From: Comamonadaceae bacterium
Lineage (GTDB): Bacteria; Pseudomonadota; Gammaproteobacteria; Burkholderiales; Burkholderiaceae_C
Direction of reading: 5' to 3'
Length of the DNA stretch: 64,000 bases
Assembly: GCA_947373185.1 (NCBI GenBank)
Contig: CANBWP010000011.1
Location: 1-64,000 of the forward strand
Of this stretch, positions 35,246-54,668 are shown one piece after another. The notes under the pieces are model-generated. The model ran no database searches. It was not told the origin of the DNA and saw only the letters and a list, made by a program, of their open reading frames with translations. Position numbers and translations under genes: made by a program. Each line of letters begins with the position of its first letter. Position 1 is the stretch's first letter.

Positions 35246-36529
35246 ATGTTGAAAAAAGAGCAAAACGACCTGGTCACACAAACAGGACCTGGCACCCCTA
35301 TGGGCAATGTCTTCCGGCGCTATTGGATGCCGGCCTTGCTGTCACAGCAGTTGCCTGGCCCAGATTGCGATCCTGTTCGCCTCGAATTGTTTTCAGAAAA
35401 AATGGTGGCCTTTCGCGACACCCAAGGCCGCTTGGGCTTGATCGATGAATTCTGCGCCCACCGTGGTGTGTCTTTGTGGTTTGGTCGGAATGAAGAAAAT
35501 GGTTTGCGTTGCCCCTACCACGGCTGGAAATTTGACATCAAGGGCCAATGCACCGAAGTGCCCTCCGAGCCCACCTCCGGCTACTGTGACCGCATCAAGC
35601 TGAAGTCTTATCCCATGATTGAACGCGGTGGTGTGATCTGGGTCTACATGGGCCCTGCCGACAAGCAACCGCCCTTGCCTGAATATGAATTTGCCACAGT
35701 GCCGGCCGAGCAGTCGTACATGTCCAAGCGCTACCAAGAGTGCAATTGGCTTCAAGCCTTGGAAGGCGGCATTGACTCCAGCCACGTGTCGTTCTTGCAC
35801 AGCGGCAGTTTGAACACCGACCCTTTGTTCAAAGGTGCCAAAGGCAACCAATACAACCTCAGCGACTTGAGCCCTGTCTTTGAAGTGGCCGAGTCCACAG
35901 GCGGCTTGTTCATTGGCGCAAGGCGCAATGCAGAAGACGATCAGTACTACTGGCGCATCACGCCTTGGCTCATGCCCAACTTCACGGTGGTCCCCCCGCG
36001 TGGCGATCACCCTGTGCACGGCCACTTCTGGGTGCCTGTCAATGACCATGCTTGCTGGGCTTGGAGCTTTGACTACCACCCCACGCGCGCGTTGACGCAT
36101 GCGGAGCGCTCCGCGATGGAGGGCGGTGCCAGTGTTCACGTGAAGGTCGATGCCGACTACAAACCTTTGCAGCGCAAAGAGAACAATTACGGCATGGACC
36201 GTGATGCGCAACGCCAGCGTATTTTCTACAGCGGCATTGAAGGCATTGGCATTCAGGATGCGTCCTTGCAGGAAAGCATGGGCACCATCCAAGATCGGAC
36301 CAAAGAGAATTTGGTGTCCACGGACAACGGCATCATCATGACGCGTCAACGTTTGATGAAAGCGGCCAAAGCCTTGGCAGAAGATCCGAACACCCAGTTG
36401 CCAGGCATTGACCCCGAAGCGCAGAAAGTTCGATCGGCCGCTGTGTTGTTAAAGCGTGATTTGGTTTTCAAAGATGCGGCCAAGGAGGCTTTGCGGGCAT
36501 CACCAGGGAAGCCGCACAGCTCCGTCTGA
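35246..36529 (+). CDS. Rieske 2Fe-2S aromatic ring-hydroxylating oxygenase, alpha-type (copy 1; phthalate oxygenase-like)
   Basis: CAHRGVSLWFGRNEENGLRCPYHGW Rieske motif; mononuclear Fe motif GGIDSSHVSFLH. Confidence 0.92.
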   Translation: MLKKEQNDLVTQTGPGTPMGNVFRRYWMPALLSQQLPGPDCDPVRLELFSEKMVAFRDTQGRLGLIDEFCAHRGVSLWFGRNEENGLRCPYHGWKFDIKGQCTEVPSEPTSGYCDRIKLKSYPMIERGGVIWVYMGPADKQPPLPEYEFATVPAEQSYMSKRYQECNWLQALEGGIDSSHVSFLHSGSLNTDPLFKGAKGNQYNLSDLSPVFEVAESTGGLFIGARRNAEDDQYYWRITPWLMPNFTVVPPRGDHPVHGHFWVPVNDHACWAWSFDYHPTRALTHAERSAMEGGASVHVKVDADYKPLQRKENNYGMDRDAQRQRIFYSGIEGIGIQDASLQESMGTIQDRTKENLVSTDNGIIMTRQRLMKAAKALAEDPNTQLPGIDPEAQKVRSAAVLLKRDLVFKDAAKEALRASPGKPHSSV

Positions 36530-36554
36530 ACTTGAAATGCTGTGAGAATTGCTC

Positions 36555-36592
36555 GTTCCCATATAAGGAACGTCGGTTCTCTATGCTTGACA
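36555..36592. promoter_or_regulatory. Operator-like element, site 2 (upstream of second Bug protein); right half degenerate
   Basis: GTTCC-catataa-GGAAC-gtcg-GTTCT-ctatgct-TGACA. Confidence 0.55.
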
Positions 36593-36641
36593 GAGAGGCA
36601 CGTTTCACGGACAGTTCAGGGCTTACCCCTACACGGTTTGC

Positions 36642-37664
36642 TTGAAGGATTTGAACTTGAAACGCTTTTCTCTGATTCTAGGAATCATTCGTCATCAGGC
36701 CTTGGCCTACGGCTTGGGCATGGGCATTTGTGTTGCTGGCAGCATGGCTGCGGGCCTCGCCCAAGCGCAAGACGCTGCCTGGCCACAACGTGCCGTCAAA
36801 ATTATTGTTCCTTATGCTGCAGGCGGAAGTTCTGACAGCTTGGGACGGCTGATCTCTGTCGGCCTGACAGATGCTTTGAAACAACCCTTTGTGATCGAAA
36901 ACAAGGGTGGGGCAGGCGGCATGATTGGTTCACAACAAGTTTCCAAGTCAGCCCCCGATGGTTACAACTTGGTCATTTCGGGTGTGGCATCACACGTGAT
37001 TGGCCCTTCAGAAAATCCGAAAACTTACGATCCGGTCAAAGACTTCACACACATTGCGATGTTGGGTGGGCCCCCTATCGTGTTGGCGGTGAATGCACAA
37101 TTGCCCGTCACCGATTTGAAAAGCTTCATTGCTTATGCCAAAGCAAATCCTGTCAGCTGGGGCTCCCCTGGCAAAGGCACACATGGTTATTTGATTGGCG
37201 AAGCGTTTGAAGTGATGGCCAAAACCGACATGCAACATGTGGCTTACAAGGGCGGAAGTCCCGCAGTGGCAGATACCATTGCCGGCCACATCCCGGCATT
37301 GTTCACCACACTGTCGACAGCCAGTGCGCAGATTCAGGCAGGCAAACTGCGGGCTTTGGCGATCACATCATCCAAACGCATGCCCGAGTTTCCCAACGTG
37401 CCGACATTTGCGGAACAGGGATTTCCAAAGCTGGTGGCGCTCACATGGTTCTCATTGTCAGGTCCCCCAGGGATGCCGCCTGCGGTGGTCGACAAATTGA
37501 ACAAGGAAGTGCGCAAGATCATGCAAAGCCATACAGCGAAGGACTTGTTGGCCAAAAGTTCAATGGAAACCTTCGATTGGGACTCCGTCAGGTTTACCCA
37601 ATATGTGGGTGAAGAACTGAAGCAATGGGCACCCATGATCAAAACGGTGAAGCCTGAAAACTGA
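36642..37664 (+). CDS. Tripartite tricarboxylate transporter substrate-binding protein (Bug family), orphan copy 2
   Basis: Signal peptide; WPQRAVKIIVPYAAGGSSDSLGRLI; NKGGAGGMIGSQQVSKSAPDGYNLV. Confidence 0.9.
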   Translation: MKDLNLKRFSLILGIIRHQALAYGLGMGICVAGSMAAGLAQAQDAAWPQRAVKIIVPYAAGGSSDSLGRLISVGLTDALKQPFVIENKGGAGGMIGSQQVSKSAPDGYNLVISGVASHVIGPSENPKTYDPVKDFTHIAMLGGPPIVLAVNAQLPVTDLKSFIAYAKANPVSWGSPGKGTHGYLIGEAFEVMAKTDMQHVAYKGGSPAVADTIAGHIPALFTTLSTASAQIQAGKLRALAITSSKRMPEFPNVPTFAEQGFPKLVALTWFSLSGPPGMPPAVVDKLNKEVRKIMQSHTAKDLLAKSSMETFDWDSVRFTQYVGEELKQWAPMIKTVKPEN

Positions 37665-37691
37665 TCTCAGGCGGTGTCGTGAAACCCCCAC

Positions 37692-37722
37692 AAAAAAAGG
37701 CCCTGAAAAGGGCCTTTTTTTT
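37692..37722. terminator. Bidirectional intrinsic terminator
   Basis: AAAAAAAGGCCCTgaaaAGGGCCTTTTTTTT between convergent genes. Confidence 0.92.
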
Positions 37723-37763
37723 CACGCTGATGTGAGAAAAAGGATTGCGCCTTTGTCTCAAAT

Positions 37764-38081
37764 TCAGGCTTCGATTTCGATCTCATCGCCCTGCACACGG
37801 GCTTTGTAGGTTTTCAGGGGGATCATGCAAGGCGCAGCGACCACGGCCCCAGTTTTGATGTTGAAGGAGCCGTTGTGAAAGTCACATTCGACCACATCAC
37901 CCTCGATAGGACCTTCTGACAAAGAGCCTGGGCCGTGTGTGCAGGTATCGTCTGTGACGTAGTATTCACCGTCGATATTGAACACAGCCAAGGTCAGTCC
38001 ATCTTTTTCGACCTTGATGGCTTTACCTTCTGCAACTTCTGCAGCTTTGCACAAAGAGAGAAAACGGCACGCACCCGACAT
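37764..38081 (-). CDS. Rieske 2Fe-2S ferredoxin (non-haem oxygenase ferredoxin subunit)
   Basis: DTCTHGPGSLSEGPIEGDVVECDFHNGSFNIKTG. Confidence 0.92.
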   Translation of the reverse strand: MSGACRFLSLCKAAEVAEGKAIKVEKDGLTLAVFNIDGEYYVTDDTCTHGPGSLSEGPIEGDVVECDFHNGSFNIKTGAVVAAPCMIPLKTYKARVQGDEIEIEA

Positions 38082-38125
38082 AAAGAATCTCCAGTTGACA
38101 ATGACAAGTCGCTGATGATAACCTC

Positions 38126-38162
38126 GTTTCTAATGAAAGAACATTGTTCCTTTATGAGGAAC
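38126..38162. promoter_or_regulatory. 37-bp operator-like element, site 3 (divergent ferredoxin / Rieske 2 promoter region)
   Basis: GTTTC-taatgaa-AGAAC-att-GTTCC-tttatga-GGAAC. Confidence 0.72.
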
Positions 38163-38241
38163 GGTTAATTCAGCGAAAATTTCACACCGAAATACCCACC
38201 ATTTTATGACCCCGTGCAGATGCACTTGAGGAGAAACTTGC

Positions 38242-39525
38242 ATGTTGAAAAAAGAACTCAATGACTTGGTAACCCAAACCGGCCCCGGTACGGCCATGGG
38301 CAATGTGTTCCGTCGTTACTGGCTGCCCGCTTTGTTGTCAGAACAACTGCCCGGCCCAGATTGCGAGCCTGTGCGTTTGGAGTTGTTGTCAGAAAAAATG
38401 CTGGCCTTCCGTGACACCGAAGGCAAGCTGGGTTTGATCGATGAGTTTTGCGCCCACCGTGGCGTGTCTTTGTGGTTTGGCCGCAATGAAGAGAACGGCA
38501 TTCGCTGCCCTTATCACGGCTGGAAATACGATGTGAATGGCAATTGCACAGACGTGCCTTCCGAGCCTACATCAGGTTACTGCGAGCGCATCAAGCTCAA
38601 GTCTTACCCCATGGTGGAGCGCGGTGGCGTGATCTGGGTTTACATGGGCCCTGCAGACAAGCAGCCGCCTTTGCCTGAGTGGGAATTTGCCACCTTGCCA
38701 CGCGAACACACATACATGTCTAAGCGTTTGCAAGCCAGCAACTGGTTGCAAGCCTTGGAAGGTGGTATTGACTCGAGCCATGTCTCCTTCTTGCACAGTG
38801 CATCTTTGAGCCGTGATCCCTTGTTCAAAGGCGCCAAGGGTAACCAGTACAACTTGAACGACTTGAGCCCCGTGTTTGAAGTGGTCGAAGCCGATGGTGG
38901 TTTGTTGGTGGGCGCACGACGCAATGCGGAAGACGACCAGTATTACTGGCGCATCACGCCTTGGATCATGCCTTGCTTCACCATGGTGCCCCCACGCGGT
39001 GACCACCCCGTGCACGGTCACTTCTGGGTTCCCATCAATGATCACACCTGCTGGACATGGAGTTTTGACTACCATCCCACACGTGCACTGACCACCGAAG
39101 AAGTAGATGCCATGAAAGGCGGCGCCAGCATTCACGTGAAAGTCGACAAAGACTACGTGCCGTTGCAGCGCATGGACAACGACTACCTGATGGACCGCAA
39201 GGCTCAAAAGGAAGGCATTTTGTACAGCGGCATCGAAGGCATCGGCATGCAAGATGCGTCCTTGCAAGAAAGCATGGGCAGCATTCAAGACCGCACCAAA
39301 GAAAACTTGGTCTCAACCGACAACGGCATCATCATGGCGCGTCAGCGTTTGATCAAAGCCGCGCGTGCTTTGGCTGAGAACCCAGACTTTGAATTGCCTG
39401 GCTTGAACCCCGAGCATCAAAAAGTTCGCTCTGTGGCCATGTTGATCAAGCGCGATGTGCATTACAAAGAAGGCGCCAAAGAGCACTTCAAGTCTGCACC
39501 TGGCAAGCCACACTCCAGCGTTTAA
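38242..39525 (+). CDS. Rieske 2Fe-2S ring-hydroxylating oxygenase, alpha-type (copy 2)
   Basis: CAHRGVSLWFGRNEENGIRCPYHGW; GGIDSSHVSFLH; same length (427 aa) as copy 1. Confidence 0.92.
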   Translation: MLKKELNDLVTQTGPGTAMGNVFRRYWLPALLSEQLPGPDCEPVRLELLSEKMLAFRDTEGKLGLIDEFCAHRGVSLWFGRNEENGIRCPYHGWKYDVNGNCTDVPSEPTSGYCERIKLKSYPMVERGGVIWVYMGPADKQPPLPEWEFATLPREHTYMSKRLQASNWLQALEGGIDSSHVSFLHSASLSRDPLFKGAKGNQYNLNDLSPVFEVVEADGGLLVGARRNAEDDQYYWRITPWIMPCFTMVPPRGDHPVHGHFWVPINDHTCWTWSFDYHPTRALTTEEVDAMKGGASIHVKVDKDYVPLQRMDNDYLMDRKAQKEGILYSGIEGIGMQDASLQESMGSIQDRTKENLVSTDNGIIMARQRLIKAARALAENPDFELPGLNPEHQKVRSVAMLIKRDVHYKEGAKEHFKSAPGKPHSSV

Positions 39526-40669: not shown

Positions 40670-40704
40670 TTTCAAATCTTGGCTTTATGTGCCAAGGTTT
40701 GAAA
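40670..40704. terminator. Long stem-loop between convergent ADH and CobW genes
   Basis: TTTCAAATCTTGGC-tttatgt-GCCAAGGTTTGAAA (14-bp stem with one G-T pair). Confidence 0.6.
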
Positions 40705-41791
40705 TGCCTTGTTGCGCAAGCCACAGCGCCGAAGCCTCTGGCAGTGGGCTGCTCACAATGACGGTCAAGCCACTGCGGGTGCTGTCAGCCCAACGCAACT
40801 CATCTGCGCACACTTCAGCCTGTGTTTCAAACGGCGCCAACTGAATCACATGGCGGCCTTGTGCCGTTTCAACACGGCCTTTCAAGCGCAGCAACCCTGC
40901 CCCCAAGGTCTGTTGCAATGCATGCACCTGTTGCGTGAGTGCGTCGATGGACGGGTTGTCAGCAATTGGCCACCAAAGTGCTTGCGCGGCATGAACGTGT
41001 GCGTGTTCATCTGCATGTTCGCATACGCTGCAGTGCTCGCCAGGCTTGTGCAGGTGCAAGGCGTGTTGCTGATGCACCTCAACAGGTTTCATGGCGTTGA
41101 ACGTCAAAGGCGTATCAATGACTGCTTGACTTGCGGTCGACGGATGCGCCAAAGTGTCCAGCAACGTTTGGGCAGACAAGCTGGCGTGTGACGAGGACAA
41201 CAAACTCGGTGACGTCGCAAGTTCTAAATGCGCCAGTTGGTGACGAACTCGCAAGATCAATTCACCTAAGTTTGCAGCGCTGACCAAATCTGTTTTGGTG
41301 ATGACCAAGACATCTGCACCAGCCAATTGCGCGCGTGCTTCTGCGTGTTGTTTCAAAACGGCATCGGCCGTGCTGGCACTGAGGCAGGTGATGACGCCTG
41401 CCAAGCGGTAACGCTCGTTCAGTAAATCGCTGCTTCGCAAGGCCTGGGCGACCGGCCCAGGTTCAGCCAGACCTGTGGTCTCAATGACCAAGTTGGGAAA
41501 GCGGTGCATGCGCCGCTCTAGGCGCGCCCAAAACAAATCTTCAAGGGCTTCGGCCAGGCCAGGCAGACCGGTGCAACACACGCAGGCATTGGCCACCAGC
41601 GCGCTGCTTTCGGTGGCGCCACTCAGCAGTTGATTGTCCAGCCCGACCTCGCCCAGTTCATTGATCACCAGTGCGGCATCTTTGAAAGCGTCTTGCCCCA
41701 GCCAGGCTTTCAGGAGGCTGGTTTTGCCACTGCCCAAAAAGCCTGTGAGCAAATAGACAGGGATGCGTTTGTCGGGTGTGGGGGTGTTCAT
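40685..41791 (-). CDS. CobW/G3E-family GTPase (putative metallochaperone)
   Basis: YLLTGFLGSGKTSLL, CVCC metal motif, TKTD; His-rich segment HADEHAHVHAA. Confidence 0.92.
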   Translation of the reverse strand: MNTPTPDKRIPVYLLTGFLGSGKTSLLKAWLGQDAFKDAALVINELGEVGLDNQLLSGATESSALVANACVCCTGLPGLAEALEDLFWARLERRMHRFPNLVIETTGLAEPGPVAQALRSSDLLNERYRLAGVITCLSASTADAVLKQHAEARAQLAGADVLVITKTDLVSAANLGELILRVRHQLAHLELATSPSLLSSSHASLSAQTLLDTLAHPSTASQAVIDTPLTFNAMKPVEVHQQHALHLHKPGEHCSVCEHADEHAHVHAAQALWWPIADNPSIDALTQQVHALQQTLGAGLLRLKGRVETAQGRHVIQLAPFETQAEVCADELRWADSTRSGLTVIVSSPLPEASALWLAQQGISNLGT

Positions 41792-41856: not shown

Positions 41857-42327
41857 ATGGAACGCATCACGATCTCAATTGAAACGGAACTGGCTGGTAT
41901 TTTGGACCAGTTGACCGAGAAAAATGGCTATGCCTCACGCTCGGAAGCCATTCGAGATTTGATTCGTGGCTGGCATTCGCAAGAAACCCTGCGCCAAAAC
42001 GAAAGCGAACATTGCATCGCCCATTTGGGCTATGTGTACAACCACCACGATCGAACCATGGCGGAGCGCATTGCCAATTTGCAGCATGACCATCATGACC
42101 TGACGGTGTCCAGCATGCATTTGCACTTAGACCATGACAATTGTTTGGAAGTGGCATTTTTGCGGGGCAAAACCAAAGAGGTGAGGCAGTTTGCGCATCG
42201 CATCGTGGCTCAAACAGGTGTGCGCCACGGATCGGTTCAAATTGTGCCGGTTACTTTGGAAAAAGCAGCGAAGGGGCACGACCATGGGGATGGTGTCCAC
42301 CATGTGCACTTACAACCTGCCAGTTAG
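41857..42327 (+). CDS. nikR: Nickel-responsive regulator NikR
   Basis: Ribbon-helix-helix MERITISIETELAGILDQLTEKNGYASRSEAIRDLIR; Ni ligands in SSMHLHLDHDNCLEV. Confidence 0.93.
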   Translation: MERITISIETELAGILDQLTEKNGYASRSEAIRDLIRGWHSQETLRQNESEHCIAHLGYVYNHHDRTMAERIANLQHDHHDLTVSSMHLHLDHDNCLEVAFLRGKTKEVRQFAHRIVAQTGVRHGSVQIVPVTLEKAAKGHDHGDGVHHVHLQPAS

Positions 42328-43117
42328 CATTTTTTCGGCGGTACAAGCGGGCACTGACCCAGTAGACCAACACGGCAATGCCCGTCACGCCCAGGCCAAT
42401 GTAGGCGCCCCAAGCGTCCCAAATGACCTCTAAGTTTTCAAAATGCTGACTGGTGTGACCCACCGCCACCACCATCAGCGACAGCGCGGCAATGACGCCG
42501 CTCATGATGCGGCCAGCGTTGTGCGCCAGGTCATGGCTTCGGTTGACCAGCCAGTGCATGAGCAAGCCATTGCTGGTGTCGGCCAGTGTCATGCCCAGAC
42601 CAAAACTCAGCGCCATGGAAACGATGGCAAAGAAGCCGCCCAATTCGTGGCCTTTGGTCGCCATGAGTCCGGCTTGTGCCAAAGAGTCAAAGGAAATGGC
42701 AAACCCAAAACCCACGCCCATGGGATGAGCCAATGGGCCCATGGCTTGCAATATTTTTCGTTGAAAGGGACTGCCAGCGTGGTCATGGTCGTCGGTGCCT
42801 GAAAAGCAAAACTTCAAATTGCGGTAGGCCAGCCAGACCAAGAAAAAAGTAGAAATCCAAAGACCGACCGCATCCAGCCACTCCGGCAATTGAATGCCAT
42901 ACAGGTAGAAGGCAAAGGTCGCCAACAAAATGGTGAGGCTGTGGCCGCATGCAAATTGGAAACCCGTTAGGCGCGCTTTCCAGTAAGCGCTGCCGTTGTG
43001 GCGCAAGCGCGTCATGCCATCGACCACGGCAATGTGGTCGGGGTCAAGGCCATGCCTGAAGCCCAATGCGAGCAACAAACCAGACGTGGCGAGCAGTGAC
43101 GTGGTGTTCAAATCCAT
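42251..43117 (-). CDS. NicO/HoxN-type nickel/cobalt transporter
   Basis: GFRHGLDPDHIAVVDGMTR and GFQFACGHSLTILLATF metal-transport motifs; polytopic. Confidence 0.88.
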   Translation of the reverse strand: MDLNTTSLLATSGLLLALGFRHGLDPDHIAVVDGMTRLRHNGSAYWKARLTGFQFACGHSLTILLATFAFYLYGIQLPEWLDAVGLWISTFFLVWLAYRNLKFCFSGTDDHDHAGSPFQRKILQAMGPLAHPMGVGFGFAISFDSLAQAGLMATKGHELGGFFAIVSMALSFGLGMTLADTSNGLLMHWLVNRSHDLAHNAGRIMSGVIAALSLMVVAVGHTSQHFENLEVIWDAWGAYIGLGVTGIAVLVYWVSARLYRRKNANWQVVSAHGGHHPHGRAPSLLFPK

Positions 43118-43118
43118 G

Positions 43119-43145
43119 GTGTGATTTTCTTCTGAATCGTCATAC
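43119..43145. promoter_or_regulatory. Candidate NikR operator upstream of the Ni/Co transporter
   Basis: GTGTGA-N15-TCATAC, right half AATCGTCATAC; 1-2 nt upstream of the transporter start codon. Confidence 0.4.
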
Positions 43146-43197
43146 TTGTGCGCGAAAAAAAAGCACAGGGGCTGCGCTTTTTAGTGGCGGACACCGC

Positions 43198-45003
43198 TCA
43201 TGGTTTGGCCTTGTGGGCCAAATTCAGAGCGTGCGGTGTGTCGTGTGAGTGGTCATGAGGATGGTCGTGGCCATGTGAGTGTCCATGGTCATGCGAGTGC
43301 CCATGCTGATGTGAATGGCCATCGCCATGCGAATGCGCCTTCTTGTGATCGTGACGGTGCATCTTGCCGTCTTCATGGGCATGCCACTCGCCGGGATCGG
43401 ACTTGCCATGGGCACGTGGGTCTTCATTGAAGACCAAAGACTTGACGGTGACCGGCACCGTCCAAGATGGCATGCGAATGCGGCCCAAGTCGACGAAGTC
43501 AAAGCCCCACAAAGTGACACCATCAATCACCAAGACTTCGCACTTCACGCGCTCGTCTTCTTTAAACAGGTGGCCAAGGTTGTGGGCAATGTCGCCATCG
43601 GTCACGATGTACAAATGGCGTTGCTGCTTCAGTGTTTCGGGCAAACCATTCAGGATGCCTTGTGACAATGCATGCAAGCGGCTGAAAGACGGCGCGCCAA
43701 GCCAGCGCAGCGAAATGGCCACATCTTGCGCGCCTTCTACCAAGTCGTGCCGGCGGAAGGACTTGCCCAGCGCCTCTGCAATTTCAACGGGGTCGATGGC
43801 TTCTGTGAGCGTCAGATTCAAGGGAATCACTTGCAGGTTTTTGCGCGGGAGCAGGGCGGCAGGTTCAGAAATGAAGGTGGTGTTGCCACTCAGTTGAACA
43901 CTGTATTCAGAGGCGCCCAGCACGGTCGCTCGGATGCACTCACCGGCAGGCAACAAAGGAACGGGCACAGCGTTCTGGTCCAGACGTTGGCGCACGGCTT
44001 CACCGAACAATTTGCCCAAGTCGCCAAAGTCACGCATTTCACGGCGATACACGTATTCGCCCACACCGCCAGAGAACATGATGCCATCGAGTTGGCCCCA
44101 GTCATCGACGGGGTCTGTCAAATACAGTTGTGCCAAATCTTCGCGTGAGAATTTTTGTGTGAGCACGCGCACCAAGGCGTCGGCCATCCACTGTGCCACT
44201 TTGGCCAAGTCTTGACGCGAGACTTGATCGCCCAGTTTCCAATCGAAGCCGGCTTGGCTGGCCAGGTAGGCGCCTGCAGGGTCGAGCCGTGTGAGCACAT
44301 TTTTTTCATTCACCACCATGAGACGGCCACCCAAATGAACGGCCGCGGTCGCAATCAGTTCACCGTTTTGAACCAAGCCCAGCTTGGTGGTGCCACCGCC
44401 AATGTCGATGTTCAAGATGCGGTGTTTTTCGTCGTACGAGCGCTTGGCAGCACCCGAGCCATAGACCGCCAACATGGCTTCCATGTGGTGACCGGCTGTG
44501 GCACATACAAACTCGCCCCCTTGCTCTGCCAATACAGCGGCAATGGATTCGCTGTTTTCGCGGCGCAGGGCTTCGCCTGTCAAGATGACGGCACCTGCAT
44601 CAATTTCATCGGGATGCAAACCAGACTCTTGGTACGCTTTGTCAATGATGGTGCCAAGGGCTTTGGCATCCATCAAGCTGTCGTTCAGGTAAGGCGTGAG
44701 GGAGATGGGCGATTGATACAGCGCAGTGCGTTCCACCACGGTGTAACGGCTCGACAAATCTTCGGCAATGCGGCGCAAATGGATGCGTGAAAACACCACC
44801 TGTGTGCCAGAGGAGCCCACATCGATGCCGACGCTGTGCAAAATCACATTGTCTTGACGCCACAGTGATTCTTGCGATGGATCGTCCCCCGCAAAGTCAT
44901 GGTCATGGTCATGGTCTGCTTCACCATCGTGCGTGTGATACGTGTCCGCGCCGTATTGGTGGTCCTGGACGCTGTGTTTGTTTTGAATGTCTTCGCTGCT
45001 CAT
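43198..45003 (-). CDS. EutA-like ASKHA-fold reactivase with His-rich N- and C-termini
   Basis: VGIDVGSSGTQVVFS, RILNIDIGGGTTKLGLV, GIMFSGGVGEYVY; tails HTHDGEADHDHDHD and HSHGDGHSHQHGHSHDHGHSHGHDHPHDHSHD. Confidence 0.85.
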   Translation of the reverse strand: MSSEDIQNKHSVQDHQYGADTYHTHDGEADHDHDHDFAGDDPSQESLWRQDNVILHSVGIDVGSSGTQVVFSRIHLRRIAEDLSSRYTVVERTALYQSPISLTPYLNDSLMDAKALGTIIDKAYQESGLHPDEIDAGAVILTGEALRRENSESIAAVLAEQGGEFVCATAGHHMEAMLAVYGSGAAKRSYDEKHRILNIDIGGGTTKLGLVQNGELIATAAVHLGGRLMVVNEKNVLTRLDPAGAYLASQAGFDWKLGDQVSRQDLAKVAQWMADALVRVLTQKFSREDLAQLYLTDPVDDWGQLDGIMFSGGVGEYVYRREMRDFGDLGKLFGEAVRQRLDQNAVPVPLLPAGECIRATVLGASEYSVQLSGNTTFISEPAALLPRKNLQVIPLNLTLTEAIDPVEIAEALGKSFRRHDLVEGAQDVAISLRWLGAPSFSRLHALSQGILNGLPETLKQQRHLYIVTDGDIAHNLGHLFKEDERVKCEVLVIDGVTLWGFDFVDLGRIRMPSWTVPVTVKSLVFNEDPRAHGKSDPGEWHAHEDGKMHRHDHKKAHSHGDGHSHQHGHSHDHGHSHGHDHPHDHSHDTPHALNLAHKAKP

Positions 45004-45012
45004 GGGGGCCGT

Positions 45013-46056
45013 TCAATAAAACTGATCAAAGTGCACTTGGTCCATGGGCACTTTCAGATCAATCAATGTTTTCAAGAGTGACTGGCCCATGAGTGCAGGG
45101 CCAGCAAAGTAAATTTCCATCTGTTGCAATCGCTCACCAAAGGTTTGAGCCACCGCGTCGTGTGCAAAGCCGCGCATGAAGTCGCTTGGCAAGTTGTCGG
45201 TTTCGCTTGCGCCAGAGACCACGGCTTGGTAGGTGCCGCGCTCAGACCAATGAGGCAGTGTTTCTAGCATTGCCAAACCGCACACATCTTGCAGCGCCCG
45301 CGCGCCGTAGAAAAAGTGAAGTTTTCTTTGGGTCATTTGCGGGCTGAGGAAGGCGCCGCGTGCAATCGACACCATGGGCGCCAAGCCTGAGCCACCGGCA
45401 ATGCACAACACATCACGTTCAATGTTTTCACGCAAGTAAGCCATGCCATACGGGCCGTCAATTTCAACGTGATCGCCTGGTTTCAGGTGGTCAAACAAAT
45501 GAGCACTGCCTTTGCCGTCAGGAACGCGCCGAACTTGAAATTCGATCAAGTTGCCCGCTTGTGTTTCGCCATTGAACATGCCAACGTTGCTCATGGAATA
45601 GGCGCGTGGCCCTTCGATGCCAGCCATTTGAATGAGTGCATATTGACCGCACAAAAATGGCAAAGGCAACTCAGTTTGAAAGCTGAACTCAGACAGGTCG
45701 TGCGTGATCACGCGCGATGAGATGAACTTGGCGGCTGTGCGCACAGGCGGGAACTGTGGTGCATATTTGTCGCTGGTTCTGAGTTTGATTTGAAGCGGGC
45801 CTGTGGGCCTGCTTTGGCAACCCAGACCTCTGTTTCTGGCACGGTCTTTGTCGGACAGGCCGGGTGCCTCGGGCCAGCAAGACGCCATGACGCCTTCCAG
45901 CAATTCGAATTTGCAATTGCCACAAGAGCCGACATTGCATTCATAGGGAAAAGCAATGCCGCTGCGCAATGCGGCGCGCAGCAGGGTGTCGTTTTCTGCG
46001 CAGGAGAAAGACTGATCTGTGCCAGCCAATTGAATGGTGTGAATTGCTTGAGACAT
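45013..46056 (-). CDS. 2Fe-2S ferredoxin-NAD(P)H reductase (oxygenase electron-transfer component)
   Basis: N-terminal plant-type ferredoxin CNVGSCGNCKFELLEG; FAD motif RAYSMSN; NAD motif CIAGGSGLAPMVSI. Confidence 0.9.
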   Translation of the reverse strand: MSQAIHTIQLAGTDQSFSCAENDTLLRAALRSGIAFPYECNVGSCGNCKFELLEGVMASCWPEAPGLSDKDRARNRGLGCQSRPTGPLQIKLRTSDKYAPQFPPVRTAAKFISSRVITHDLSEFSFQTELPLPFLCGQYALIQMAGIEGPRAYSMSNVGMFNGETQAGNLIEFQVRRVPDGKGSAHLFDHLKPGDHVEIDGPYGMAYLRENIERDVLCIAGGSGLAPMVSIARGAFLSPQMTQRKLHFFYGARALQDVCGLAMLETLPHWSERGTYQAVVSGASETDNLPSDFMRGFAHDAVAQTFGERLQQMEIYFAGPALMGQSLLKTLIDLKVPMDQVHFDQFY

Positions 46057-46061
46057 GAGGA

Positions 46062-46844
46062 TTAAGCGCGATAGCCGAGTTGGGTGGAAATGGCTTCGGC
46101 CGTGCTTAACAACACTGGGGCCAAGCCGCGTAATTTTTTCAGGGTGAGGCGCTGGCTGGGGCCGCCAATGCCAATGGCGGCAACCACTTGACCGGTGATG
46201 TCGCGCAGTGGCGCGCCAATGCCGCGCATGCCTTGTTCGGATTCCTCGTCGTCAATGGCGTAGCCATGCGCGCGAATCTCGGCAAACATTTTCATCAGTT
46301 TGGTGGGGTCGGTTTGGGTTTCTGGGGTGCGCGCTGCCAACGGGCTGTTGAGCACTTTGTTCATCAGCTCATTGCCACCAAAGGCCACGATGGCGCGGCC
46401 CTCGCAAGTGCAAAAGGCAGGTTTGATGGTGCCGATGTAACTCTTCATCCGGATCGCCTGACGGCTTTCCAAGTTGTAGAGGTACAAGATGTTGGTTTCG
46501 TTCATGACGGCCAAGTGAATGGTCTCGCCCGTTCTTTCGCGCAAGACATTCAGGAAGGGTTGCGCCATGTTGGAGACATCCAAACGGCGACGCACCAAGG
46601 CGCCCATCACGAACAAATTGATGCCCAAGCGGTAACGACCCGTTTCGGGGCTCTGCTCCAAAAGGCCTTCGCTGGTGAGTGTGACGGCCAAACGGTGGAC
46701 AGTGCTTTTGGCCAGAGACAAACGCTTGGCCAAACTGCTGATGCCAATTTCAGGCTCAACTTCTGAGAAACATTTCAGCACACGAACAGCCGCTGCCACT
46801 GAAGACAGTCGTGAGCTTTTGGATGAGGTGTTGTCAGTGGTCAT
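46062..46844 (-). CDS. IclR family transcriptional regulator
   Basis: HTH AAAVRVLKCFSEVEPEIGISSLAKRLSLAKSTVHRLAVTL; effector domain RGIGAPLRDITGQVVAAIGI. Confidence 0.93.
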   Translation of the reverse strand: MTTDNTSSKSSRLSSVAAAVRVLKCFSEVEPEIGISSLAKRLSLAKSTVHRLAVTLTSEGLLEQSPETGRYRLGINLFVMGALVRRRLDVSNMAQPFLNVLRERTGETIHLAVMNETNILYLYNLESRQAIRMKSYIGTIKPAFCTCEGRAIVAFGGNELMNKVLNSPLAARTPETQTDPTKLMKMFAEIRAHGYAIDDEESEQGMRGIGAPLRDITGQVVAAIGIGGPSQRLTLKKLRGLAPVLLSTAEAISTQLGYRA

Positions 46845-46980
46845 GGGTCTGTGACTTTGCAATCAATGCCTGTTCAAATGGGAGTCAATGGTTGGCCAAA
46901 TTGCAGGGGACAACCTGCAAAGTCTGGGTAAAGCCCTTGATTTCTTGGTCGTTCTGGTCAATTTGTGACATCATATCTAT

Positions 46981-47238: not shown

Positions 47239-48972
47239 GTGCAAAGTTCAGTTGCGGTCGCTGCCAAACCCAAATTCGGGTCGGGATTTGACGCCAAGTG
47301 GTTGGTGATTGGTATTTGTTTGGCCATCGTCGCCGTGTTGGCCTTGGTCCCCTTCTGTTTCATGATTTGGCAGAGTTTCAACACGGCTGAAACAGCCGAT
47401 GCGCCTGCGGTCCTCACCTTGGGCAATTACGTCACGGCTTACACCAACCCCGAAACGGTGGTGACCTTCTGGAATTCAGTTCAGTTTGCCTTGGGGGGGT
47501 CCATGGTGGCCTTCGTGATTGGCACGGCCTTGGCTTGGATGAATGAAAGAACCAACACGCCCATGCGGCGTTTGTTTTTTGCCTTGTCCATCGTGCCCTT
47601 GATCATTCCCAGCATCTTGTTCACCATTGCTTGGATCATGTTGGCCAGTCCCAAAATTGGCTTGCTCAATACCGTGGCCATGTCTTGGTTTGGCTTAGAA
47701 ACACCGCCTTTCAATATTTACTCAATGTGGGGCATGATTTGGGTCGATGGTTTGCATTACTCGCCCATGGCGTTTTTGCTCATGTCATCTGCCTTCAAGG
47801 CCATGGACCCTTCCTTGGAAGAATCGGCGGTCATGAGTGGCTCGAGTGTTTTCAACACGCTCTACCGCATTACCTTGAAACTGGTGTTTCCGGCCATTGT
47901 GGCCACCGTGCTGACCTTGTTTGTGCGTGCCATCGAGTCCTTTGAGGTGCCGGCTTTGTTGGGCTTGCCAGGCGGCATTCAGGTGTTCACGTCGGCCATT
48001 TATCAGGCCATTCACCAGTACCCAAGCCAAATTGGTTTGGCGGCCGCCTACTCTGTCATTTTGTTGTTGCTCACAACGGGCGGCATCTATGTGCAAGCCA
48101 GAATTTCTGCATCTGGCAGCAAATACGCCACCGTGACAGGCAAGGGATTCCGCCCGCGCACCATCGATTTAGGGGCTTGGCGCTATTTCACATTGGCCAT
48201 CTTTGTGGTCTATTTCTTATTGATTGTGGTGATGCCATTTTTGGTCTTGCTGTGGTCCTCCTTGCAAAAGTTTTATGCGCCCCCTTCCATGGAGGCCTTG
48301 TCCAGAATCACCTTGGATGGCTATCGCTACATTTTGGGTTCCGACAACATTCGCACCGCTGCATTGAACAGCCTTTGGATGTCCATTACCACTGCGACCG
48401 TGGTGATGTTGTTGGCGTCAGTGGTGTGTTGGATTGTGGTGAAAACCAAAATTCCAGGTCGTTGGATGTTGGACAACTTGGCTTCTTTGCCGATGGTCTT
48501 CCCTGGCCTGGTGCTCGGCGTGTCGATCATGATTTTCTATCTCACGTTTGACATCGGCATTTACGGCACCTTCTGGATCATCTTGTTGGCCTACATCACG
48601 CGCTTTTTGCCCTACGGTTTGCGTTACAGCACCACCTCCATGTTGCAGATCCACAAGGACTTAGAAGAGTCTGGTGGCATGAGTGGCGCCAGCTGGTTGA
48701 CAGTGTTCACACGCATTGTGTTGCCCTTGCTGAAACCTGGTTTGGTGGCTGGTTGGATCTACGTGATGATCGTGTCGATCCGTGAATTGTCGACGTCCAT
48801 TTTGCTTTACAGCCCCGGCAACGAGGTGATCTCGATTGTGATTTGGGAGCTGTGGGAGAACGGCCAGTATGTGGAGTTGTCAGCACTGAGCGTGATCTTC
48901 ATCTTCATGTTGCTGGTATTGGTGGGCTTGGCCCAAATGGCCGGTAAACGATTTGGCGTCAAAGAGAGTTGA
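47239..48972 (+). CDS. ABC transporter permease, Fe(III)-type double-domain
   Basis: About 12 TM segments; two permease halves with EAA-like loops (EESAVMSGSSVFNTLYRITLKLVFPAI; EESGGMSGASWLTVFTRIVLPLLKPG). Confidence 0.9.
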   Translation: MQSSVAVAAKPKFGSGFDAKWLVIGICLAIVAVLALVPFCFMIWQSFNTAETADAPAVLTLGNYVTAYTNPETVVTFWNSVQFALGGSMVAFVIGTALAWMNERTNTPMRRLFFALSIVPLIIPSILFTIAWIMLASPKIGLLNTVAMSWFGLETPPFNIYSMWGMIWVDGLHYSPMAFLLMSSAFKAMDPSLEESAVMSGSSVFNTLYRITLKLVFPAIVATVLTLFVRAIESFEVPALLGLPGGIQVFTSAIYQAIHQYPSQIGLAAAYSVILLLLTTGGIYVQARISASGSKYATVTGKGFRPRTIDLGAWRYFTLAIFVVYFLLIVVMPFLVLLWSSLQKFYAPPSMEALSRITLDGYRYILGSDNIRTAALNSLWMSITTATVVMLLASVVCWIVVKTKIPGRWMLDNLASLPMVFPGLVLGVSIMIFYLTFDIGIYGTFWIILLAYITRFLPYGLRYSTTSMLQIHKDLEESGGMSGASWLTVFTRIVLPLLKPGLVAGWIYVMIVSIRELSTSILLYSPGNEVISIVIWELWENGQYVELSALSVIFIFMLLVLVGLAQMAGKRFGVKES

Positions 48973-49033: not shown

Positions 49034-50140
49034 GTGTTAACTGTAAGTGGATTGCACACTGAATATGTCAGCGACAAAGGCGTGGTGGTGAAAGCTGCGC
49101 AGGATGTCAGCTTTGAAGTGCCCGAGGGCCAACTCTTTACTTTGCTGGGTCCCAGCGGTTGTGGCAAGACCACCACGCTGCGCTCTATTGCTGGCTTGGA
49201 AAAACCGACCCAGGGAACGATTGCGGTCAGTGGCACAACGGTTTACAGCTCAGCTCAAAACGTCTTTGTGCCGCCCAACAAACGCGGCTTCGGCATGGTG
49301 TTTCAGTCCTACGCCATTTGGCCGCACATGACCGTGTTTCAAAATGCCAGCTTCCCCTTGGAAGTGGGCCAAAAGAAATTCAGCCGCAAAGAAATTGAAA
49401 CCAAAGTCATGCGAGTGCTGGAGTCTGTGGAATTGGCGCAATACCATGACCGCGATGCCACACGCCTGTCGGGTGGTCAGCAGCAGCGCTTGGCCTTGGC
49501 ACGTGCATTGGTCATGGAGCCTAAGTTGTTGCTCTTGGACGAGCCTTTGTCTAACTTGGATGCCAAGTTGCGCGAGAAGATGCGTTTTGAGTTGAAGAAA
49601 ATTCAGCGCGAATTGGGCATCACCACCATCTATGTGACGCATGATCAATCAGAAGCTTTGGCCCTGTCGCATGAAATTGCGGTGATGCGAAATGGCCGGG
49701 TTGTTCAGTTAGGCAATCCGCGTCAAATTTACGAAACACCCAACAGCGAATTCGTGGCCGACTTTGTGGGCACCATCAACTTTGTCAAAGCCACCGTGCG
49801 ATCCATGGATGCGTCGACCAACAAAATGGTGGTGGACGCTGAAATTGGCGTCATTGAAGTGCCCATGATCAATGATTTCCATGTGGGGGAAGAGGTGCAA
49901 GTGTGCGTGCGTCCTGAAGACATTCACTTGAGTGACTCAACGCCGCCTGTTGACCATTCCAACCATTACTTGGGCACCGTTTTTGCCAAGATCTTCTTGG
50001 GCGAAGTGCTCGACTTCCAAGTTCAAGTCAACGACAAAGTCATGTTGGCACGTGTTCACCCCAGCCAGAAAACGCCAGTTGGCGCGCCCATCCACATTGT
50101 GGTGGACCCCTCCGACTTCATCGTTTTGAAAAACAAATAA
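49034..50140 (+). CDS. ABC transporter ATP-binding protein (GTG start)
   Basis: GPSGCGKTTTLRSIAG, LSGGQQQRLALARAL, LLLLDEPLSNLDAKLR, C-terminal TOBE-like region. Confidence 0.95.
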   Translation: MLTVSGLHTEYVSDKGVVVKAAQDVSFEVPEGQLFTLLGPSGCGKTTTLRSIAGLEKPTQGTIAVSGTTVYSSAQNVFVPPNKRGFGMVFQSYAIWPHMTVFQNASFPLEVGQKKFSRKEIETKVMRVLESVELAQYHDRDATRLSGGQQQRLALARALVMEPKLLLLDEPLSNLDAKLREKMRFELKKIQRELGITTIYVTHDQSEALALSHEIAVMRNGRVVQLGNPRQIYETPNSEFVADFVGTINFVKATVRSMDASTNKMVVDAEIGVIEVPMINDFHVGEEVQVCVRPEDIHLSDSTPPVDHSNHYLGTVFAKIFLGEVLDFQVQVNDKVMLARVHPSQKTPVGAPIHIVVDPSDFIVLKNK

Positions 50141-50166: not shown

Positions 50167-50769
50167 ATGAGTGCTGATGACAACAAAGCGCCCTCTGCGG
50201 AATTCGTTCCCAATGAGTCGCACTACCACAGCAAAAAAGACCGCACGTTTGTGCGTGCGATTGCTGGCCCTTACAACTTGGGCGATGAGCTCAAGCGCTT
50301 GCGCGCCATGCCCCGCGTGCGCAAAGGCAAGGACATCAAATTCAACGATGGCCCTCAAGCCTTCAGCCGTCACTACGTGGAGCCTAAAGATGGCATCACG
50401 CAAACGTTCCACATGCACTTGGAAGAGTACGGCCCAGGTGGCAACTCGCAAAAGCACGGTCACGTGAACGAAGCGGCTTTCTACATCTTGGACGGCACGG
50501 GCTACGAGATTCACGACGGCATTCGTTATGACTGGAAAGCCGGCGACATCGCCGTGGTCCACAACAACTGTGTGCACCAGCACTTTAACGCCAGCAACGA
50601 GCGCCCAGCGCGCGCGTTGGTGATCAAAACCAAACCCATGTACATGTTCATGAACATGTTGTTCCAACACCAAGTGGAACCCCGTCCAAGCGAACCCGCA
50701 CCAGGCGGCGAAGGCTTTGTGGCGCGCAACGACGAAGAAGACTTTAATCATCCAAAGGGAGGCTACTGA
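50167..50769 (+). CDS. Cupin domain protein 1
   Basis: KHGHVNEAAFYILDGTGYEIHDGIRYDWKAGDIAVVHNNCVHQHFN. Confidence 0.88.
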   Translation: MSADDNKAPSAEFVPNESHYHSKKDRTFVRAIAGPYNLGDELKRLRAMPRVRKGKDIKFNDGPQAFSRHYVEPKDGITQTFHMHLEEYGPGGNSQKHGHVNEAAFYILDGTGYEIHDGIRYDWKAGDIAVVHNNCVHQHFNASNERPARALVIKTKPMYMFMNMLFQHQVEPRPSEPAPGGEGFVARNDEEDFNHPKGGY

Positions 50770-50770
50770 G

Positions 50771-51367
50771 ATGGCTTGGGACGAATCAAAATCATGGTTG
50801 CAAGGCAACCAACAAGGTCAGTATTACCAAGGCTTGTTGGACGACGCAGAGCAAATGCCTGCTCGCAATTCCAAGCGTCACAAAGTGGTGCGCCCTGAAG
50901 ACATGCCATGGGAAATGGCGCGTCAAGGTTTGCTCAAGCACTTGATGAATGAGTCCATGAACACACGCATCGAAACGGTCGATGCCTACATGCAGATCAT
51001 TCCACCAGGCAGCAAGTCGGGCAAGCACCGCCACTTGGCAGAAGAGTGTGTCTATGTGCTGGAAGGTCGTGGCTACGATTTGCACCAAGACTGCGACGTG
51101 GAAATCACCGACACCTACCACTGGAAACCACAAGACGAAATCAAGCGTTATGAGTGGGAAGCCGGTGACGTGATCTACATTCCACCAAACACCATTCACC
51201 AACACTTCAACGCCGATCCAGATCGCCCAGTGCGTTTGATCTCCTCCATCAACCGCATTTTCAAATACTGCGGCTTGAACGATTTGGAGCAAATCGAGAA
51301 CGCCCCGGAGTTTGATCCTTCGGTCAAATTGGATGGCGAAGCCATCATGAAGTACTTACGCAAATAA
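50771..51367 (+). CDS. Cupin domain protein 2
   Basis: GKHRHLAEECVYVLEGRGYDL ... WEAGDVIYIPPNTIHQHFN, complete cupin motifs. Confidence 0.9.
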   Translation: MAWDESKSWLQGNQQGQYYQGLLDDAEQMPARNSKRHKVVRPEDMPWEMARQGLLKHLMNESMNTRIETVDAYMQIIPPGSKSGKHRHLAEECVYVLEGRGYDLHQDCDVEITDTYHWKPQDEIKRYEWEAGDVIYIPPNTIHQHFNADPDRPVRLISSINRIFKYCGLNDLEQIENAPEFDPSVKLDGEAIMKYLRK

Positions 51368-51379
51368 TCAGAGCAGAAC

Positions 51380-52495
51380 ATGGCAAAAGACGCACTCGTA
51401 TCGGAAGACCTCGCTTCCAAATTCGCAACTGAGAAAGAAACGCCTTACACCCGCTGGGTGAAAAATGAAGGCTTGGACATCATCAGTGCCCATTACATTC
51501 GCAGCTTGAACACTGTCGATTTGAAGCCTTGGGCTCGTCGCGGCGGCAAAGGTGTTTACATCAACCACGAAGCATCCCGCACGTCCAACGACTGCTACGT
51601 GTGCGAAATTGCGCCAGGCAAACAGCTCGAGCCACAGCGTCAAATCTTTGAAGAAATGATTTATGTGTTGTCTGGCCGTGGCTCCACCACGGTTTGGAAC
51701 GACCAAGGTCATCGCATCACATTTGAATGGCAAGCCGGCGCCTTGTTTGCGATTCCTTTGAACTGCATGCACCAGCACTTCAACGGCTCTGGCAAAGATG
51801 CCGCCCGTTTTGTGGCCGTGACCAATGGCCCACCCGTGATCAACTTGTATGAAGATTTGAACTTCGTGTTCAACACCCAGCACGACTTTGCCAATCGCTT
51901 CAACGGCGAGCCTGATTACTTCAGCGGCAAAGGTGAGCAAAAAGGTTTGCTGCTCGAAACCAATTTCGTGGCCGACGCCGTGAACTTGCCTTTGATCAGT
52001 GCCAAAGAACGCGGCGCCGGTGGTGGTCACATTCGTTTCAACATGGCGCGTGGCTCCATGAACAGCCACATTTCTCAGTTCCCCGTGGGCACCTACAAAA
52101 AGGCGCACTGCCATGGACCAGGCGCGCACGTGATCATTTTGAGCGGTGAAGGTTACAGCTTGATGTGGCCCGAAGGTGAAGAGCCCCGTCAATACGATTG
52201 GGAAGTGGGCGCCATGGTGGTGCCACCCAACATGTGGTTCCACCAGCACTTCAACACAGGCAACACGCCTGCACGATATCTCGCTTTCAAACACGAGGTG
52301 GTGTCGGTTCGAAATGCCCAGGGTGTGCCTAAGGCTTGGATCAGCCGCCGTGTGGGCGGTGACCAAATTGATTATGCTGACGAAAGCCAAGCAGTTCGCA
52401 CGCGCTTCTCAGACTCTCTGGCCAAGCATGGCATGGCGCCTCGCATGGAAGAGGCTTACGAAGCAGAACTGCCTACTTTGCCACCCAAGTCCTGA
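51380..52495 (+). CDS. Bicupin protein 3
   Basis: Two cupin cores ending in NCMHQHFN and NMWFHQHFN. Confidence 0.88.
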   Translation: MAKDALVSEDLASKFATEKETPYTRWVKNEGLDIISAHYIRSLNTVDLKPWARRGGKGVYINHEASRTSNDCYVCEIAPGKQLEPQRQIFEEMIYVLSGRGSTTVWNDQGHRITFEWQAGALFAIPLNCMHQHFNGSGKDAARFVAVTNGPPVINLYEDLNFVFNTQHDFANRFNGEPDYFSGKGEQKGLLLETNFVADAVNLPLISAKERGAGGGHIRFNMARGSMNSHISQFPVGTYKKAHCHGPGAHVIILSGEGYSLMWPEGEEPRQYDWEVGAMVVPPNMWFHQHFNTGNTPARYLAFKHEVVSVRNAQGVPKAWISRRVGGDQIDYADESQAVRTRFSDSLAKHGMAPRMEEAYEAELPTLPPKS

Positions 52496-53627: not shown

Positions 53628-54668
53628 ATGATTCGCAAAGCATTTGTTTTGTTGGCGTGTGTGAGTGTTTGGGGGCTCAGTGCGCCTGCCTATGCTCAAA
53701 CCGATGTCAGTTTGTTGCGCAGTACCGCGCCAGATCGCGGTGCCAAATTGGCAGCCGCCGCCAAGGTAGAGGGCACCCTGACCCTCTACACCTCCATTGC
53801 AGAAAAAGACCTGAAGCCGCTGATCGAGCCGTTTGAGAAAAAATACGGCGTCAAAGTCAACACCTGGCGCGCCAGTGGCGACAGCGTCATGAACCGCACC
53901 CTGAATGAAACCAAGGCGAAGCGCTACAACGTGGACCTGGTGCATGCGGGTGCTGTGGAGCTGGAAGTGCTGCACCGTGAAAAAATGTTGCAAGCCGTGG
54001 CTTCCCCCCACTTTGTCGATTTGATGGCAGGCAGCGTGCCATCGCACAAAGAATATGCCACCACCATTTATTCCATGTGGGTGCAGGCATACAACACCGG
54101 TTCGGTTAAAAAATCGGAGTTGCCGAAAACCTACCAAGACCTGCTCGACCCCAAGTGGAAAGGTCGCCTGGGCTATGAGATTGAAAACATCGATTGGTTT
54201 GTGACCGTTGTGCAGTCCATGGGCGAAGCCAAAGGCTTGCAGTACTTCCGTGATTTGGCCACCACCAACGGCATCTCAGTCCGCAAAGGCCACACCAACC
54301 TCACCAACATGGTGGCGGCCGGTGAAGTGCCTGTGGCCCTGACGGTTTACAACTACATGCCCGAGCAGCTCAAGAAAAAAGGCGCGCCGATCGATTGGAC
54401 CGTGCTCCAACCTGCGGTGGTGCGTGGCAACGCGGTGGGCGTGATGAAGAACGCCAAGAACCCAGCGGCTGCCGCATTGTTCATGGATTACTTGTTGGGC
54501 GAAGGTCAGCAGGCGTATGCAGACCTCGAGTACCTGCCCGCCAACACCAAAATTGCCAGCAGTTTGCGCAACTACAAAATGTTGGTGGTGGACCCTGAAG
54601 AAAGCTTAGACCGCCGCGACAAATGGCGAAAGTTATACGACGAAATCATCATGCGTGGGAGCAAATAA
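53628..54668 (+). CDS. ABC transporter substrate-binding protein (Fe(III)-type family), second copy
   Basis: Sec-type signal; EGTLTLYTSIAEKDLKPLIEPFEKKYGVKVNTWRASGDSVMNR; KTYQDLLDPKWKGRLGYE. Confidence 0.9.
   Translation: MIRKAFVLLACVSVWGLSAPAYAQTDVSLLRSTAPDRGAKLAAAAKVEGTLTLYTSIAEKDLKPLIEPFEKKYGVKVNTWRASGDSVMNRTLNETKAKRYNVDLVHAGAVELEVLHREKMLQAVASPHFVDLMAGSVPSHKEYATTIYSMWVQAYNTGSVKKSELPKTYQDLLDPKWKGRLGYEIENIDWFVTVVQSMGEAKGLQYFRDLATTNGISVRKGHTNLTNMVAAGEVPVALTVYNYMPEQLKKKGAPIDWTVLQPAVVRGNAVGVMKNAKNPAAAALFMDYLLGEGQQAYADLEYLPANTKIASSLRNYKMLVVDPEESLDRRDKWRKLYDEIIMRGSK

Follow-up and report, generated by a model that had tools for sequence, protein, structure and literature searches.

The EutA-like ATPase encoded in the window (the whole 64,000-nucleotide stretch that was analyzed) very probably acts in partnership with a bicupin, a reading that comes from comparing gene content, gene order and trees across bacterial genomes. 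The pair in the window, together with a second pair on the same contig, is as follows.

43198..45003, minus strand: EutA-like ATPase of subfamily A, 601 aa, with a PF06277 match and ASKHA motifs
51380..52495, plus strand: bicupin of 371 aa, from the constant partner family, with C-terminal cupin ligands H243, H245 and H288 (H290) and no Glu
Contig 65246-68043 (L084): second bicupin and EutA-like pair, subfamily B, without His tails

The second EutA-like gene (contig 66502-68043) lies 2.5 kb past the window end, directly downstream of the gene for a 418-aa bicupin. This second pair is followed by genes for an alpha/beta hydrolase-like protein and by molybdenum-hydroxylase-type genes.

The EutA-like gene and its ATPase core

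The initial annotation had placed a EutA-like reactivase at 43198-45003 on the strength of the motifs IDVGSSGT, IDIGGGTTK and SGGVGEY. The open reading frame is real, running from 45003 to 43198 on the minus strand with an ATG start, and all three motifs are present in it. The resemblance to EutA was borne out by a match of residues 55-526 to the Pfam family EutA (PF06277) along the full profile (positions 3-475 of 475), with a score of 373.6 bits where the cut-off is 27. Unlike EutA itself, the protein fell below all four NCBIfam EutA equivalog cut-offs, where the best score was 311 bits versus 598. The ASKHA residues D61, G63, S64, D200, G202-G204, T205, S311-V314 and E316 were invariant in the clade (56 relatives), and most of these phosphate and adenosine residues are common to canonical EutA too.

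A structural comparison with EutA had also been suggested. Fold searching with the model of the EutA-like protein returned generic ASKHA proteins alone, at low TM-score, and no EutA-family structure for comparison was found in the PDB by sequence search. The ATPase core is similar to those of BadF/BcrA-type ATPases and 2-hydroxyglutaryl-CoA dehydratase component A (1hux), but the BadF/BcrA-type Pfam match was weak (35.4 bits), TM-scores were low and, unlike component A, the EutA-like protein has no known dehydratase partner.

Pairing with a bicupin across genomes

For comparison of neighbourhoods, 80 loci of relatives were fetched, and genes were called by codon usage and then clustered. Two of the six search patterns were taken from the His-rich ends, so that the set may favour tailed members; this bias leaves the bicupin statistic unaffected, and whole-genome searches with family profiles recovered untailed members. 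The bicupin family was the commonest neighbour family, found in 54 loci. At the level of whole genomes, a bicupin was present in 50/50 tested genomes with a EutA-like gene, whereas among 398 sampled Pseudomonadota a single genome had it, that of the Comamonadaceae bacterium itself. Searching a Burkholderiales sample by bicupin recovered its own genome and four others; EutA-like genes were present in all four of these and EutB in none, although G689, which belongs to these four, had the coordinates of G413 and is not an independent genome.

Copy number, position and ancestry follow the same pattern. Across 40 genomes, 84 EutA-like genes were counted against 87 bicupins, with a Spearman coefficient of 0.85 for copy number; 54 of these 84 genes had a same-strand bicupin neighbour less than 600 bp away, and 74 had a bicupin within 20 kb. 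Three EutA subfamilies (A, B and C) matched three bicupin subfamilies in 59/59 adjacent pairs, with two bicupins from a small side group pairing with subfamily B. The order of the adjoining genes varies, the bicupin coming first in Streptomyces and Blastococcus and the EutA-like gene first in alphaproteobacteria; it flips inside subfamilies A and C, not inside all three. Distance matrices for the two families were correlated at r = 0.94, a value that shows a lasting unit rather than contact, because linked inheritance alone would raise the correlation. Any two genes that sit close together in a single catabolic cassette would likewise co-occur and give matching trees.

Other neighbours were less constant. 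ABC, NicO, NikR, CobW and Rieske genes came and went across the subfamilies (few B and C loci had full flanks), and the small cupins, like the Rieske proteins, were not constant across the three. The general idea put forward earlier, that a reactivase or metallochaperone had been taken over to serve some enzyme of this gene island, fits the data in part. Cupins and Rieske proteins were then named as possible partners; the comparison points to the bicupin and not to the Rieske proteins or the small cupins.

The bicupin as a predicted metalloenzyme

A HxH motif and a third His, without Glu, are expected for a 3-His mononuclear cupin site. Both elements are found in one cupin domain of the bicupin: H243, H245 and H288 were present in 94 of 96 bicupins and are kept across subfamilies A, B and C, where H290 is likewise conserved and the usual Glu is absent. 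The N-terminal domain has no HxH motif, and the predicted metal site is that of the C-terminal domain. The model of the window bicupin (mean pLDDT 89.4) resembles MncA, oxalate decarboxylase and gentisate dioxygenase, and its C-terminal domain matched the gentisate dioxygenase 3bu7 (E 4.8e-6). The bicupin thus appears to share its fold with gentisate 1,2-dioxygenase and other bicupins, with oxalate decarboxylase and MncA folds similar, but it differs from them in its low sequence identity and in the N-terminal domain lacking HxH. The bicupin is a putative 3-His oxygenase. Two bicupins that adjoin EutA-like genes (L048:776 and L193:2693) have lost most of the metal-ligand His residues, and the proposed model does not account for this loss.

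His-rich tails and nickel genes

The EutA-like protein carries two tails.

44839..45003, minus strand: residues 1-55, a His/Asp-rich N-terminus (DHxxG...HxH...DHDHDHD), largely disordered by prediction
43201..43428, minus strand: residues 526-601, the His-rich C-terminal tail (23 His), largely disordered by prediction

These tails, which had been picked out in the initial annotation, are real, with 7 His and 11 Asp in residues 1-55; the C-terminal one, with 23 His in its 76 residues, has the composition of a putative metal-binding segment. AlphaFold confidence was low at both ends (below 50 for most of residues 1-41 and for 555-601), consistent with flexible tails. An N-terminal DHDH-type motif was found in 61/61 proteobacterial and 15/17 actinobacterial members of subfamily A. 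The C-terminal tail is proteobacterial, averaging 32% His in that part of subfamily A versus 2.3% in the core, with hardly any such tail in actinobacterial members. As judged by sequence, the tails are conserved and not a product of chance. When tail composition was compared across subfamilies, no His tails were found in subfamily B, which suggests that the tails are an addition to the bicupin partnership and not its basis.

Next to the EutA-like gene lies a group of genes of nickel-handling type.

42251..43117, minus strand: NicO-type Ni/Co permease
41857..42327, plus strand: NikR nickel-responsive regulator with an extra His-rich C-terminus
40685..41791, minus strand: CobW/G3E GTPase with a His-rich insert
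43140..43145, minus strand: GTATGA, similar to a half-site for NikR, immediately upstream of nicO (weak)

Between 40685 and 42327, His-rich stretches thus occur in both the CobW GTPase and NikR, and the NikR and nicO genes overlap at their 3' ends. The GTATGA upstream of nicO recurs in most close relatives, but GTATGA counts in the window were not above chance, and a search for a full NikR palindrome or operator found none. NicO, NikR and CobW genes adjoin the EutA-like gene in Limnohabitans-type loci; NicO and NikR are missing from most EutA-like loci. Urease was present in the Comamonadaceae bacterium genome and in most genomes tested, and it already explains nickel handling, so nickel was not accepted as the certain metal. 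In two Limnohabitans-type metagenome bins with nickel genes at the locus (L012/G403 and L017/G405), neither urease nor hydrogenase was seen. The metal would be Fe, Ni or Co; nickel in particular is doubtful, given that only some lineages have the nickel genes and that urease occurs in most genomes tested.

These features bear on one alternative, that the EutA-like protein is a general ATP-dependent nickel (or cobalt) metallochaperone tied to import through NicO or the ABC permease, with the bicupin as one client among others. Its tails, its NicO, NikR and CobW neighbours and the permease fusions described below all fit such a role, for which Helicobacter pylori offers a precedent: its metallochaperone SlyD binds NiuD, the permease component of an ABC importer for nickel (PMC7840056). 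A flexible His-rich tail near nickel-handling genes is indeed shared with SlyD and HypB, but the EutA-like protein differs from both in fold and in having the bicupin as its constant partner. Since the bicupin is constant in all three subfamilies whereas NicO, NikR and ABC genes are not, and subfamily B lacks His tails, we regard a general metallochaperone as unlikely, if the strongest of the alternatives.

Operon organization and the ABC importer

The remaining genes around the EutA-like gene are as follows.

46062..46862, minus strand: IclR-type regulator (domain match), first gene of the EutA operon
45013..46056, minus strand: ferredoxin-type reductase (Fer2, FAD and NAD domains) of the kind serving Rieske oxygenases, EutA operon
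43158..43182, minus strand: terminator-like hairpin and T-run between the EutA-like gene and nicO (z = -3.1)
47239..48972, plus strand: ABC permease with two BPD_transp_1 stretches, divergent operon
49034..50140, plus strand: ABC ATPase with TOBE domain
50167..50769, plus strand: single-domain cupin 1
50717..51367, plus strand: single-domain cupin 2
53628..54668, plus strand: ABC substrate-binding protein (SBP_bac_6/8)
35246..36529, plus strand: Rieske oxygenase 1
38242..39525, plus strand: Rieske oxygenase 2, clustering with oxygenase 1

An operon of iclR, reductase, EutA-like gene and Ni/Co permease had been proposed. The first three stand together, with gaps of 5 and 9 bp, but membership of NicO is doubtful: an 80-bp gap holds the hairpin with its T-run, and nicO is therefore probably its own transcription unit. 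The hairpin sequence occurs in close relatives too; it was not among the hits of a consensus terminator scan. The divergent operon comprises the ABC importer, the two small cupins, the bicupin and the binding protein. In Streptomyces-type loci the two small cupins (50167-51367) appear as one fused 351-aa bicupin (L066:11625-12677). Within 35246-39525, a tripartite-transporter (Bug) binding protein and a small ferredoxin of Rieske type are encoded between two Rieske oxygenases of the same family. A paper on the riboflavin/lumichrome pathway, with which the locus and its Rieske oxygenases, cupins and TPP enzyme were compared, mentions no Eut protein (PMC12746152).

In four separate metagenome bins (L023, L025, L037 and L039) the EutA-like protein runs on, by way of a His-rich linker, into an ABC permease related to that at 47239..48972, the two parts being 58-59% and 65-66% identical to the window proteins. 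Such fusions connect the EutA-like protein with import, at least in certain species. Together with the order EutA, permease, ATPase seen in several loci, they would suit an ATPase that regulates the ABC importer or gates its transport, with the bicupin degrading the imported compound. Subfamilies B and C are, however, mostly without nearby ABC genes, and several subfamily A loci keep the EutA-bicupin pair without them, making a gating function improbable.

Separation from canonical EutA

The initial annotation had found no EutB in the window, and this was confirmed genome-wide: no EutB was found in the Comamonadaceae bacterium genome (2.79 Mb, 99.94% complete), and with it no co-regulated eutBC locus elsewhere. 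EutB was absent from 38 of 50 related genomes; in the 12 that have it, EutB was encoded on another contig than the EutA-like gene. Canonical-type EutA, examined as a control in the phylum sample, had EutB as its direct neighbour in 5/5 genomes, whereas neither this linkage nor the co-occurrence was found for the EutA-like gene of the window. In the tree, subfamilies A, B and C were each monophyletic and stood jointly apart from six canonical EutA sequences (UFBoot 100), placing the EutA-like protein outside the canonical clade. Compared with Escherichia coli EutA (b2451), it shares the full-length family match and the phosphate and adenosine motifs, but differs in its separate clade (subfamily A 29-36% identical), its His-rich tails and its partner, which would be the bicupin and not EutBC. 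Several EutB-positive genomes (G408, G409, G412, G400 and others) have EutB on a separate contig while their EutA-family genes are all bicupin-linked, and EutBC in genomes of this type may work without a EutA of its own.

With EutB missing here and in 38/50 relatives, canonical EutA function was rejected as the main reading. We consider it a slim possibility that the protein is still a cobamide reactivase, for ethanolamine ammonia-lyase or another B12 eliminase, with the bicupin link incidental. Full-length EutA homology speaks for this, as do the 12/50 genomes with EutB, in which the EutA-family genes recovered are of the bicupin-linked kind; against it, in addition to the distribution of EutB and the adjacency seen for canonical EutA, Acinetobacter baumannii EutBC works without EutA (PMC9426561), and no diol-dehydratase large subunit was detected in 43 genomes by a search that had no positive control and leaves absence unproven. 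Least probable of all is passive co-inheritance, in which the EutA-like gene would ride along in a catabolic cassette, functionally unconnected to the bicupin: the genetic evidence does all come from linked genes, but the pair persists in three diverged subfamilies despite differing neighbourhoods and flipped gene order, and additional bicupin copies accompany additional EutA-like copies.

Proposed role and implications

We infer that the EutA-like protein and the bicupin interact physically, with ATP hydrolysis and metal transfer by the former. That the EutA-like ATPase is a dedicated accessory factor of the bicupin metalloenzyme, rather than of ethanolamine ammonia-lyase, we hold to be an evenly balanced proposition on present comparisons, and the likeliest of the readings; it would be an ATP-driven reactivase or a metal-loading factor. 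Metal exchange as its mechanism is put at slightly less than even, and is proposed by analogy, EutA using ATP to release damaged cofactor from its enzyme and so exchanging spent cofactor there (PMC9426561). The EutA-like protein would bind the bicupin, and an ATP-driven movement would open the 3-His site of the C-terminal cupin (H243/H245/H288), letting a wrong or damaged metal out and the right metal in. The disordered His tails of subfamily A could act as a local store of metal, though storage would not be essential to the pairing, as subfamily B has no tails; in some species the protein would be tethered to the permease of the adjoining ABC importer. More tentatively, the EutA-type family may supply mononuclear metal cupins with a factor that uses ATP to reactivate them or to insert their metal, the cofactor-exchange machinery of B12 enzymes being put to use at a bare metal site. 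A literature search, whose coverage left out most subscription papers, found no publication that connects EutA with cupins in this way.

Annotation based on family membership would label these proteins ethanolamine ammonia-lyase reactivases in genomes without that enzyme. The fixed EutA-bicupin gene pair offers a direct way to test how cupins come by the correct metal, a question that nickel quercetinase, for example, poses (PMC4416304). If the bicupin is the partner, the EutA family reaches beyond B12 enzymes, and a dedicated ATPase would keep a cupin oxygenase metallated and active.
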